From NCBI GenBank assembly GCA_022825705.1, contig JAJDWH010000036.1:186001-250000 (forward strand): a stretch of DNA of 64,000 nt, read 5' to 3'. Each line of letters opens with the position of its first letter. The stretch's first letter is position 1. This document shows, piece by piece, positions 47,445 to 51,641 of the stretch. The notes under the pieces were generated by a model. The model saw nothing but the letters and a program-made list of their open reading frames with translations. It did not search any database and was not told where the DNA came from. Position numbers and translations under genes: made by a program. The stretch is from Alphaproteobacteria bacterium. Lineage in GTDB: Bacteria; Pseudomonadota; Alphaproteobacteria; TMED109.

Positions 47445-48512
47445 ATGACAGGTTCCAAGCAGTACACCTACTCAGGGGCGGGCGTCGACACCAGCGCCGC
47501 TGAGCGGCTGCTGGCCCGGCTGGCGCCGCTGGTCCGCACGACTGCCCGGGCCGGGACGACCGGCGACCTCGGCGGCTTCGGCGCGGTCTACGATCTCCAG
47601 CGCGAGGGATTCCGGGACCCGTTGCTCGTGGCCGCGACCGACGGGGTTGGGACCAAGCTGCTGCTCGCGGAATCGGTCGGCAGGCACAACGGAATCGGGA
47701 TCGACCTCGTTGCGATGTCCGTCAATGATCTCCTGGTGCAGGGCGCGCAGCCGCTCTTCTTTCTCGATTACTTCGCGACCGGCCGCCTCGACCCCGAGCA
47801 CGCGTTCCAGGTGCTGCAGGGGGTGGTTGAGGGTTGCCGACGGGCCGGATGTGCGCTGGCGGGTGGCGAAACGGCCGAACTGCCTGGCCTCTACTCGGGC
47901 CGGACCTACGACCTTGCCGGTTTCGCAGTGGGGGCGGTTGAACGGGACCGCGTGCTCCCTCGCCATGATCTCGAGCCGGGGGATATCGTGCTGGCGCTGG
48001 AGAGCGACGGACTGCATGCCAACGGCTTCTCGCTGGTGCGGGCGATCGTCGGCGGGGAACGACTCGACCTGGCCGGCCCAGCCCCCTTCGCGCCAGACCG
48101 GTCCCTGGGCGAGGCGCTCCTCGATCCGACCCGGATCTACGTGCGCGAACTCCTGCCGGTGCTGGCCACCGGCACCGTCAAGGCGTTGGCGCATATCACC
48201 GGCGGCGGCATCACCGCCAATCTGGCGCGCGTACTCCCGACCGGCACGCAGGTCACGCTCGACGGCGCCGCCCTGCGCCTGCCACCGCTGTTCGACTGGC
48301 TCCGCGCGGCCGGCGGGTTGAACGCCGACACCCTGTTCGGCACGTTCAATTGCGGCGCCGGGATGCTGCTCGTCGCGCCATCCGCCGCGGCCGAGCGGAT
48401 CCGGCAAGACCTCGAAGGGAACGGGGTGCGTGCCTGGCCGGTGGGAACGGTGAGCGCGGGCGATGGGCCGGCAGTGGCCATCGAGCGCCCGGAGTCCGCG
48501 TGGCAGTACTGA
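47445..48512 (+). CDS. purM: Phosphoribosylformylglycinamidine cyclo-ligase (AIR synthetase)
   Basis: Fifth step of purine synthesis: ATP-dependent ring closure of FGAM to AIR. 355 residues from ATG 47445. Motifs: YTYSGAGVDTSAAERL, GFGAVYDLQREGFRDPLLVAATDGVGTKLLLA, seen in pieces, MSVNDLLVQGAQPLFFLDYFATG, CALAGGETAELPGLYSG, ITGGGITANLARVLP and NCGAGMLLV. The 100-bp region shared with the divergent DUF2066 gene holds an AT-rich patch with the heptamer TGCATGG twice. purN overlaps its end. Confidence 0.96.
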   Translation: MTGSKQYTYSGAGVDTSAAERLLARLAPLVRTTARAGTTGDLGGFGAVYDLQREGFRDPLLVAATDGVGTKLLLAESVGRHNGIGIDLVAMSVNDLLVQGAQPLFFLDYFATGRLDPEHAFQVLQGVVEGCRRAGCALAGGETAELPGLYSGRTYDLAGFAVGAVERDRVLPRHDLEPGDIVLALESDGLHANGFSLVRAIVGGERLDLAGPAPFAPDRSLGEALLDPTRIYVRELLPVLATGTVKALAHITGGGITANLARVLPTGTQVTLDGAALRLPPLFDWLRAAGGLNADTLFGTFNCGAGMLLVAPSAAAERIRQDLEGNGVRAWPVGTVSAGDGPAVAIERPESAWQY

Positions 48513-49150
48513 ACGTGGCCGTGCTCGCCTCCGGGCGCGGCTCCAACCTGCAGGCGCTGCTCGACCGGGCCGCCGTCGCGGCCGGTGCCGGGTTTCGGAT
48601 TGCTCTCGTGGTGTCTGATCAGCCGGGTGCGGCGGCGCTTGAGCGCGCCGCGACTGCAGGTGTTTCCGCGGTGGCCATCGAGCCCGCGGCGGGTGAGCGG
48701 CGCGCGGCATTTGACGCCCGGCTTTCCGTCGTCCTTGAACGCGCGGGCGCGGAGCTGATTTGCCTGGCGGGCTTCATGCGGATTCTCGGTCCGGCCTTTG
48801 TCGATCGCTGGCGCGGCCGCCTGATCAACATCCATCCATCACTGTTGCCGGCGTATCCCGGGCTGGACACGCACGCACGCGTGCTGCGTGACGGCGGCGT
48901 TCGACGTCACGGGTGCACGGTGCACTGGGTCCGCTCGGAGGTGGATGCCGGTCCCGTCATCGCCCAGGCGGCAGTACCGGTTCGGCCAGGCGACGATCCG
49001 GCGACTCTGGCCGCCCGTGTCCTGTCTGCCGAGCACGGGCTCTATCCGGAGGTGGTGGCCGCTATCGCGGCCGGTCGGCTCAGCGATCCTGGAGGAATCG
49101 GGCCGGGTGGGCCGGTTCAGCCAACGATGTCGAGCGCGGAGAAGAAGTAG
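48500..49150 (+). CDS. purN: Phosphoribosylglycinamide formyltransferase (GART)
   Basis: Adds the formyl group from 10-formyl-THF to GAR in purine synthesis. GTG 48500 overlaps the last 13 bp of purM and gives 216 residues; GTG 48515 is a possible later start. Landmarks: [34 protein letters not shown], catalytic [17 protein letters not shown] (Asn, His), [24 protein letters not shown] (catalytic Asp). The C-terminus ([19 protein letters not shown]) runs 34 bp into the 3' end of the convergent holC-ndk gene. Confidence 0.95.
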
Positions 49151-50100
49151 GCGATCTCGCGGGCGGCCGACGCAGGCGAATCCGACCCGTGGATCGCGTT
49201 CTGCTCGATCGAGGATCCAAAGTCCTTCCGAAGCGTCCCGGGGTCGGCGTCGCCCGGATCGGTGGCACCCATCACCTGGCGGTTGCGCACGATCGCGTCC
49301 TCGCCTTCCAGGACCTGGACCACCACCGGTCCGGAGGTCATGAAGTCGCAAAGCGACTGGAAGAACGGGCGCTCCTGGTGCTCCGCATAGAAGCCCTCGG
49401 CAGCGGCCCGCGTCAGCTGGAGGCGTCGCTGTGCGACGACCCGCAGACCCGCCGCCTCCAGCCGGGCAACGATGCTTCCGGTCACGTTGGCCTGCGTGGC
49501 GTCGGGCTTGATGATCGACAGGGTGCGTTCGACGGACGCCGGCTCTCGGCGGGGCGGCCCGTCGTCGCCGGAGCTAGTGGCCGCGGCATCGTCGGTGTCG
49601 GACTCGTTAGCCTCGGGCCCTTCCGTCGCGGCCGCGGGGGCAGCCTCGGCCGACGCTGCCGCGCGCTCCCACCGGCCCTCGTCGGTCTGGACCGACCACT
49701 GCAGGCCGCCGGAATCCGAGCGGGCCCGTCCGAACGCCTCGGCCGACCGCGTGGCTTCCGGGTCGGTCGCGTCGTAGAGCATGCAGACCCGCTGGAACGC
49801 GTCGGCATCCGAATCGTCCGCACCGTCCAGCAGCACCAGCAACTGCGCATGGTTGGGCACGCCCGTGGTCGTGGTGAGGAAGACAGGCAGCTCCTCGGGA
49901 TGATCGTCGCCGTCCGCACCATGTGGAAGGAACGCGGTTCCTCCCTCCCACAGGCTGGCATTGAGCGCCTCGATCCGCTCCGCATCCGGGGAGCGGACCA
50001 CGGCCCGCATGTCCTGCCGCAAGGCCGCGTGCAGCAGCTTCGGGACTACCGATCCGACGGGCTGCGTGCAGCCGTAGAGGTGGATCTGCGGTCCACTCAT
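49117..50100 (-). CDS. Fusion of DNA polymerase III subunit chi (HolC) and nucleoside diphosphate kinase
   Basis: One uninterrupted frame of 327 residues joins two enzymes usually coded separately. Residues 1 to about 146 are HolC-like: the opening [62 protein letters not shown], and [14 protein letters not shown] with [12 protein letters not shown]. Residues 147-187 form an Ala/Glu/Asp/Ser-rich linker. Residues 188-327 are Ndk: [38 protein letters not shown], and the phosphoryl-accepting NAIHGSDS (His304). All key Ndk residues seem present, so both activities are plausible. Upstream pepA overlaps by 4 bp. Alphaproteobacteria often have pepA, holC and ndk adjacent, which explains the origin of the fusion. 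Unusual. Confidence 0.9.
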
Positions 50101-51593
50101 TCAAGGTTGTCCGCGACGTAGCGATCCAGCAGGCGCACGCCGAAGGCGGTCCCTCCGGGAGGAACCAGGGGCCGTCCGCGGGTCCGCCAGGTGACGCCGG
50201 CGATATCCAGATGGGCCCACGGGATGCCGTCGATGAAGCGCTCCAGGAGCTTGGCGCCGGCGATGCTGCCGGCGTAGCGGCCGGAGCCCACGTTTTTCAT
50301 GTCGGCGATACGCGACTCGATGTGCCGGTCATATTCACTGTCGAGCGGGAAACGCCAGATCTTCTCATTCACCGCGTCGCCGGCAGCACCGAGGCGGTCG
50401 GCCAGCTGGTCATCGTTGCAGAACAGCCCGGCCCGCTCCTGACCCAGCGCCACGAGGATGGCGCCGGTCAGCGTCGCGAGGTCGATCACCGCCTTCGGCT
50501 TGAACTTCTGCTGTGCGTACCAAAGGGCGTCGGCGAGCACGAGCCGGCCCTCCGCGTCCGTATTGATCACCTCGATCGTCTGGCCGTTCATGGTGGTGAC
50601 GACATCGCCAGGACGCTGTGCCGTGCCGGACGGCATGTTCTCCACCAGTCCGACCACGCCCACGACATGCGCTTTCGCCTTCCGGCCCGCGATCGCCTTC
50701 ATGGTGCCGAGCACCACGCCGGCGCCCCCCATGTCCCACTTCATGTCTTCCATCGATGCCGACGGCTTGATCGAGATCCCGCCCGTGTCAAATGTCACGC
50801 CCTTGCCGACTAGTGCGAGATCGGGTCGTGTGGTCCGGCGCCCGCGCCAGCGGAGAGTCACCACCCTCGGCTCGTTGGCGCTGCCCTGGGCCACCCCGAG
50901 CAAGGCGCCCATGCCCAGCGCTTTCAACCGGGCCGGCGCCAGCACGTCCACCTCGACCCCGAGCGGGCGCAGGCTGCGGGCAGCCGCGGCGAGTTGCACG
51001 GGGGTCAGGATGTTGGCCGGTTCGGAGACCAGGTCGCGCGTGAAGAAGACCCCGTCGGCGATCCGGTCGAGTGCCGCAAAACGTTTTTCCGCTGCGCCGA
51101 CCGGGTCGGCCGTCACGGCGACGGCGTTGGTGACGGGTTTCTGCTCGTCCTTGAGCCGGGTGTGGTACCGGTCGAAACGGTAGCTCTGCAGGCGGATGCC
51201 GTAGGCGATCTGGGCGGCGGCCTCCGGCGCGTCCACCGACACCCCGGCCGGCAGGTCCGCGAACACCGTCGCCCGGGCCACCCGGTGCCGGTCAAGCGCC
51301 TGCGCAATGGCCGCGCCGATCCGCGCCATGGCTTCCGCATCGACTTTCGCAACATCGTTCAGTCCGACCAGCATGACGCTGTCCGCCGCGATTCCGGCCG
51401 GTGCCGGAAACAGCATGGTCTTGCCGAAGCTCGCCTGGAAGCGGTGGGCCTTGGCCCCTTTCAGCAGCGCACCCTTGAGGCGCCGGTCAAGGTCTCGACC
51501 GCTGGCGGAAAGCTTGCCGCCTTTGCCGACGGCGACGACAACCGCACCGCTCCGGGGCAGCGACGGCTTGATGAAACTTAAGTCAATGGACAT
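50097..51593 (-). CDS. pepA: Leucyl aminopeptidase (M17)
   Basis: Cytosolic zinc/manganese aminopeptidase; in some bacteria also a DNA-binding accessory factor. ATG 51593 gives 498 residues. The N-terminal macro-like domain ([27 protein letters not shown], seen in pieces) precedes the catalytic domain with [30 protein letters not shown], seen in pieces, [17 protein letters not shown] (metal ligands and signature) and [14 protein letters not shown]. The stop overlaps the holC-ndk ATG, so the two are translationally coupled. Confidence 0.96.
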
Positions 51594-51641
51594 GGGCGAG
51601 GTTCCGATGGTGGGCCGGGAGGTGTCCGGCACGTTCCGGGG

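Follow-up and report, generated by a model that had tools for sequence, protein, structure and literature searches.

Nucleoside diphosphate kinase (Ndk) assembles as a tetramer or hexamer. For the chi subunit of DNA polymerase III (HolC), binding to SSB is a well-documented property (PMC3290774, PMC4636137). Chi residues V117, R128 and Y131 of Escherichia coli are reported to be essential for this binding, which the substitution R128A is reported to abolish (PMC4636137), and disruption of the chi-SSB contact by R128A is also reported in work on an engineered psi-chi fusion (PMC13213242). Two further residues of E. coli chi, W57 and F64, are reported to be needed for binding of psi and of YoaA (PMC8378479). 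According to a review from 2012, chi may bind tau directly or act outside the clamp loader if the distributions of chi and psi truly differ (PMC3290774). In the accessible text of a Zymomonas study, recovery of GST-HolC failed and partners of HolC are not reported (PMC4004385). The idea that enzymes of dNTP synthesis work at the replication fork is itself old (PMC2826317).

Here we describe a locus where chi and Ndk are encoded as one protein. It lies in a 64,000-nucleotide stretch of an alphaproteobacterial genome (contig JAJDWH010000036.1, positions 186,001 to 250,000), referred to below as the window.

A conserved holC::ndk fusion in one genus

A single open frame on the minus strand encodes a chi domain, a linker of 42 residues (126 nt) and an Ndk domain (Table 1); the computed mass of the product is 34.6 kDa and its pI 4.5. 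The Pfam model for DNA polymerase III chi matches residues 12-125 with 63.9 bits (cut-off 25.4) and the Pfam NDK model matches residues 191-323 with 183.1 bits (cut-off 27). The Ndk half also exceeds the cut-off of the NCBIfam equivalog NF001908 (198.2 against 155). Among the chi equivalogs of NCBIfam the best, NF004347, reaches 102.4 and stays below its cut-off of 132, the others scoring lower still. Judged by these scores, the chi half is a recognisable but divergent HolC.

Table 1. Position of the fusion gene, its parts and its neighbours in the window
Feature	Coordinates	Strand	Basis and remarks
holC::ndk fusion gene, 327 aa	49117..50100	-	Open frame and Pfam; stop codon included
HolC (DNA polymerase III chi) domain, residues 1-146	49663..50100	-	Pfam PF04364, dN/dS, profile match to 1em8
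Acidic linker, residues 147-188	49537..49662	-	Variable; net charge -8
Complete nucleoside diphosphate kinase domain, residues 189-327	49120..49536	-	Pfam PF00334, NF001908, dN/dS, alignment with 6aes
Codon of E121, aligned with R128, the SSB-binding arginine of E. coli chi	49738..49740	-	Alignment
Codon of W51, matching W57 on the psi/YoaA face of E. coli chi	49948..49950	-	W in 7/7 fusions
Codon of F57, matching F64 on the psi/YoaA face of E. coli chi	49930..49932	-	F in 7/7 fusions
Codon of H304, histidine of NAIHGSDS, which we take to be the catalytic histidine of Ndk	49189..49191	-	Invariant in 7 fusions
pepA (M17 aminopeptidase), directly upstream of the fusion	50097..51632	-	Pfam
ORF convergent with the fusion, presumably purN	48350..49150	+	ORF list; 5' boundary is the ORF limit, start codon may differ
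ORF in the common neighbourhood, presumably purM	47445..48512	+	ORF list

Structural comparison was uneven for the two halves. Residues 2-137 of the 139-residue Ndk domain align with the solved Ndk 6aes. A chi profile built from 2 fused and 17 unfused sequences, E. coli being left out, matches E. coli chi (1em8) at 1.2e-10; phmmer with the fused chi half alone gave no match among solved structures. An AlphaFold2 monomer model, computed from a five-row alignment, has a mean pLDDT of 43, too low for judging the chi fold or the packing of the domains.

The gene was followed through seven genomes of the genus, that of the window included. In all of them it is an open frame of 327-331 aa, and each genome holds one PF04364 match and one PF00334 match, both within this frame. 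A separate holC or ndk was found in none of the seven with these two profiles, nor in the window genome with the whole protein as query. As the genomes are 92-97% complete, a second copy could have been overlooked in one of them, but hardly in all seven. The six relatives are 93, 95, 80, 80, 79 and 93% identical to the protein of the window. Four of the genus sequences also occur in records JAJEGJ010000052.1, VXPW01000100.1 (Rhodospirillales bacterium SB0662_bin_7), JAGWAT010000003.1 and JAJDYI010000073.1, all of them metagenome-assembled genomes.

Comparison of substitution rates separates the linker from the two domains. Chi has a mean dN/dS of 0.13 and Ndk one of 0.11, against 0.64 in the linker (pairwise Nei-Gojobori, 21 pairs of the seven genus sequences); both domains are under strong purifying selection and the linker is not. 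In six aligned genus sequences, insertions and deletions occur nowhere but in the linker and preserve the reading frame. All seven fusions carry NAIHGSDS or NAVHGSDS. The seven share no possible start codon (ATG, GTG or TTG in frame) close to the Ndk domain; between residues 101 and 215 the only such codon present in every fusion is ATG107, which lies inside chi and could start a product of 221 aa (chi tail, linker and Ndk) unlike normal Ndk. At this position (49780-49782), where all seven fusions have ATG, most unfused chis have D or E, as judged by eye.

The first-pass annotation, made from the window alone, had described one frame with a HolC-like domain, an acidic linker and a complete Ndk carrying NAIHGSDS, without naming the strand, and the open frame, Pfam and NF001908 bear this out, with a linker of 42 aa. 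It had also considered that a missing stop or frame error might join two genes, and that a separate holC or ndk might lie elsewhere in the genome. No such error came to light: the frame is open in 7/7 genus genomes with both domains under purifying selection, and no holC or ndk other than the fused ones was found in the genome. That an assembly or frame error joins the two genes could be suspected from the nature of the records, four in the genus being metagenome-assembled genomes and the rest draft assemblies. We reject this explanation and give it a negligible probability, since the frame reads through in all seven genomes, whose relatives are 79-95% identical, and the linker indels preserve it. 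Evidently, holC::ndk is a true, conserved fusion in one alphaproteobacterial genus, and it is fixed there as far as the genus has been sampled.

Intact fusions outside the genus were sought in two overlapping samples, one of 385 genomes from the class and one of 398 from the phylum. Among the matches listed for the class, a model of the fusion found an intact full-length frame in the four sampled members of the genus only. Sixteen other class genomes carry holC and ndk in one frame, matched across both and with one to three stops between them. Among the phylum matches listed, the window genome, the only genus member in that sample, has the only intact frame; in three others a single stop interrupts a match of almost full length, and a further two match in part. 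No intact fusion outside the genus thus appeared among the matches listed for either sample; genomes below these matches score like Ndk alone, and among them a fusion whose chi has diverged strongly might have escaped the search.

Since reported frame lengths can span stops, as seen at one locus, 140 loci were re-read from stop to stop: 76 from relatives, 26 from the class, seven from other genera of the family, 11 from the phylum and 20 further ones, these last being all listed Ndk matches with a frame of at least 280 not yet included, plus one HolC match. None of the 140 had one frame matching both profiles. For the other long HolC frames in the class list, which were not among the 140, the ndk that could be placed is out of frame, distant or on another contig. 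Of the best 80 of 179 relatives of the protein, 76 match in the Ndk part only and four over the full length; these four are the same sequences as in four of the genus genomes. A full-text search of the open-licence literature gave no title or opening of an abstract that describes a holC-ndk fusion, as the first-pass annotation had supposed. Of the literature found, PMC8378479 bears most closely on the two genes.

Gene neighbourhood and origin of the fusion

The fusion starts within the end of pepA: the TGA of pepA overlaps its start codon in the sequence ATGA (50097-50100), and the bases of this junction are identical in 7/7 genus genomes. At the opposite end, the 3' ends of the fusion and of the convergent ORF overlap by 34 nt (49117-49150).

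Unfused holC and ndk are themselves close neighbours in many members of the class. Both genes were placed in 95 class genomes, in 77 of them on one contig, among the matches listed. In 33 of these 77 genomes the two genes share a strand and ndk follows holC at less than 300 nt, in agreement with the earlier claim that the two genes adjoin in many alphaproteobacteria, and in 37 more it lies within 10 kb downstream. Class-wide, 70 of the 77 same-contig genomes listed have ndk after holC in the same orientation. The pairing of a replisome gene with the gene of a nucleotide kinase is a long-lasting one in the class.

The order pepA>holC>ndk><purN recurs in 15 of 26 class loci compared, a set picked by high score with the fusion model and biased to adjacency by that choice. 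In 30 re-read loci with both genes on one strand, 27-150 nt separate the stop of holC from the ndk domain, a range into which the 126-nt linker of the fusion falls. These comparisons strongly suggest that the fusion arose by stop loss between neighbouring holC and ndk. Within a pepA-holC-ndk order of the common kind, the stop or stops separating the two genes would have been lost and the short spacer would have become an in-frame linker. Stop loss would account for the fusion since the gene pair is common and the 16 class genomes noted above have both genes in the same frame with stops; derivation from neighbouring genes, as first assumed, agrees with this.

Genomes of other genera in the same family present a different picture. 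None of 21 (three of them at least 90% complete) gave a PF04364 match, and in 18 of the 21 Ndk is normal, with a frame of 138-154 aa. At seven loci that were read, pepA is followed after 10-70 nt by ndk, which faces purM, and neither chi nor purN was matched at this spot in any of the seven. HolC absence from these genera is not unusual in the class, as 48 of 385 class genomes have no HolC match.

A tree of PepA and Ndk from seven genus members, seven of the 21 genomes of other family genera and 14 outgroups splits the three groups apart with support of 100, 98 and 99. Under midpoint rooting the family is not monophyletic, and the genus has a support of 67. The tree is compatible with more than one root, order of events and sister relationship, and with a fusion that arose before the family diverged or afterwards; an older fusion, from which the other family genera later deleted the chi half, is possible.

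The chi half and its candidate partners

Residues of E. coli chi (sequence from NC_000913, numbering checked) were located in the fusions by alignment. The equivalent of R128 is E121 in 7/7 fusions. In contrast to this, all 62 well-conserved unfused HolCs of the class have arginine at this position, as E. coli does. These 62 comprise 22 picked by motif search and 40 from the better-scoring class HolC matches listed; the motif contains the F57-H60 region, which partly builds in the counts for F64, and R128 lies outside it. The Y131 equivalent is G in 7/7 fusions, or F under another gap placement, and the position is aromatic in 61/62 of the well-conserved unfused HolCs. Both the V117 and the Y131 equivalents depend on where gaps are placed.

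The face for psi and YoaA is preserved. The equivalents of W57 and F64 (W51 and F57 in the fusion) are kept in 7/7 fusions, and W51, F57, P59 and H60 are invariant across the seven fusions, E. coli and 22 unfused HolCs, these last picked by the motif that includes F57-H60.

Loss of the arginine appears, from the alignment, to be a trait of divergent chis, the fusion's among them, and is not peculiar to fusions. Among 30 divergent unfused HolCs, hand-picked from the weak end of the class table and not strictly the weakest, 10 keep the arginine and four are gapped at this position, several of the alignments being uncertain. The R-to-E change therefore weighs less as a fusion-linked trait, and it may simply mark a fast-evolving chi. 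The same 30 sequences keep W57 in all cases and F64 in 26, as if the psi/YoaA face mattered in divergent HolCs where SSB binding does not.

As to partners, the window genome has four SSB matches. The best-scoring one, of 155 aa, ends in DADFDEEVPF and so, by its sequence, carries the standard acidic tail. Two more ORFs with an SSB domain end in DWA, without an acidic Pro-Phe tail, and the fourth match is partial. HolD was not found in any of the seven genus genomes, and Helicase_C_2, the helicase domain of DinG and YoaA, was not found in any of 28 genomes of the order. The latter absence is weak evidence, because 49 of 115 class genomes lack the domain as well. The partners known from E. coli for the W51/F57 face, psi (HolD) and DinG-type helicases, thus went undetected here.

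Possible roles of the fusion and comparison with known systems

The fusion product would be an oligomer of Ndk in which every subunit bears a flexible chi head. If Ndk assembles as in its relatives, as tetramer or hexamer, the particle would bear several chi heads, which would give the new replisome stoichiometry proposed in the first-pass annotation. We favour, at a little less than even chances, a model in which these heads use the W51/F57 face to bind a partner and so hold Ndk there. This conserved face would then have taken over from contact with the SSB tail as the main way in which chi acts; the first candidate for the partner is tau, in the clamp loader. Ndk would be held wherever the partner of chi sits, and the last step of dNTP synthesis would take place beside it by avidity. 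Points in favour are the intact frame, the lack of other copies of either gene, the low dN/dS of both domains, the W57 and F64 equivalents kept in 7/7 fusions, the replacement of R128 by E in all of them, and the failure to detect HolD (0/7) or Helicase_C_2 (0/28). Against it, loss of the arginine does not look specific to fusions, as only 10 of the 30 weak-scoring HolCs retain it; moreover, the W51/F57 face may be retained for folding. The contribution of chi may also be small in this family, because the 21 genomes of its other genera have no HolC match.

The strongest rival to docking is a nearly neutral read-through: a stop was lost in one ancestor, the halves work independently and their joining brings no gain. 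We consider this quite possible, though on balance we incline against it. The gene order suits stop loss, with ndk less than 300 nt from holC in 33 of the 77 same-contig genomes listed and both genes in one frame in 16 class genomes outside the genus; the linker evolves almost freely (dN/dS 0.64), and the fusion is seen in one genus only among the matches listed. The constant total length (327-331 aa in 7/7) and the want of a start codon near ndk common to the seven speak against such a neutral join, but both would also be expected if re-splitting were rare. A different objection to docking would be that chi has lost its function and persists only as a relic at the N-terminus of Ndk. The missing HolC matches in the other family genera (0/21), the changed residues of the SSB site and the failure to find HolD or DinG-type helicases would suit such a relic. 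It is nevertheless very improbable, as dN/dS of chi (0.13) is about as low as that of Ndk (0.11), and W51, F57, P59 and H60 do not vary in the fusions, E. coli and the 22 unfused HolCs (a set picked with a motif including F57-H60).

The first-pass annotation had proposed that the fusion could tether dNTP supply to the fork. The fusion on which this proposal was built is real; its SSB route is weakened by E at the R128 position in 7/7 fusions and, in the alignment, by the change at Y131. In such an arrangement the chi half would bind the C-terminal tail of SSB at the fork and tie Ndk to SSB-coated DNA, as the documented chi-SSB interaction (PMC3290774, PMC4636137) and the DADFDEEVPF tail of the best-scoring host SSB would allow. 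We regard it as unlikely. The R128 and Y131 equivalents are E and G in all seven fusions by alignment (the second is F with another gap), and the change at the R128 position, shared as it appears to be with other divergent chis, still counts against SSB tethering in this genus. The net charge of the chi half, -12, would likewise be unfavourable for binding an acidic tail, but some unfused chis are nearly as acidic (-10, -10 and -11). The changed residue predicts little or no binding to the SSB tail, a prediction that separates the models.

Returning to docking through the W51/F57 face, a more far-reaching form of it would be that chi is no longer an adaptor to SSB and serves as a docking handle: its psi/YoaA face would attach the Ndk oligomer, with several chi heads, to the clamp loader or to some other partner in the replisome, and a covalent dNTP-finishing module would result there. 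This we hold to be doubtful, with some chance of being correct. If it is true, the frequent pairing of unfused holC and ndk suggests a functional, perhaps physical, link between psi-less chi and Ndk. Physical coupling of dNTP-making enzymes to the replisome has long been argued, and the fusion, as the sole copy of both genes found in the genus, offers a clean test object for it. The role of chi in alphaproteobacteria, which have no recognised psi, is a second question that the fusion can probe.

Compared with HolC proteins (PF04364), the fusion retains a complete chi domain with the W57/F64 surface, and its gene adjoins pepA as holC does in E. coli K-12. It differs from them in being joined to Ndk, in having E in place of R128, in scoring below the chi cut-offs of NCBIfam and in belonging to a genus where no HolD was found. 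Compared with Ndk (PF00334, NF001908), its domain is complete, exceeds both cut-offs, keeps HGSDS and aligns nearly end to end with 6aes; here, however, the only Ndk found is the C-terminal half of a 35-kDa protein. The order of genes is that of the pepA-holC-ndk loci with convergent purN-purM, with an open linker in place of the holC stop and the intergenic stretch.

Two described systems resemble the fusion in part. In the replication hyperstructure of E. coli, the enzyme co-localised in the available account is ribonucleotide reductase (NrdB), not Ndk, and the association is non-covalent, whereas the fusion would be a covalent link between a dNTP enzyme and the replisome (PMC2826317). The engineered psi-chi fusion of E. 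coli also joins chi by a linker to another protein, but it is man-made, its partner is psi and not an enzyme, and R128 is kept unless mutated; as reported, the fused chi was in the soluble fraction and R128A relieved a small-colony defect, indicating that the strength of chi-SSB binding matters (PMC13213242). The gene described here brings two known families together in a new fusion.
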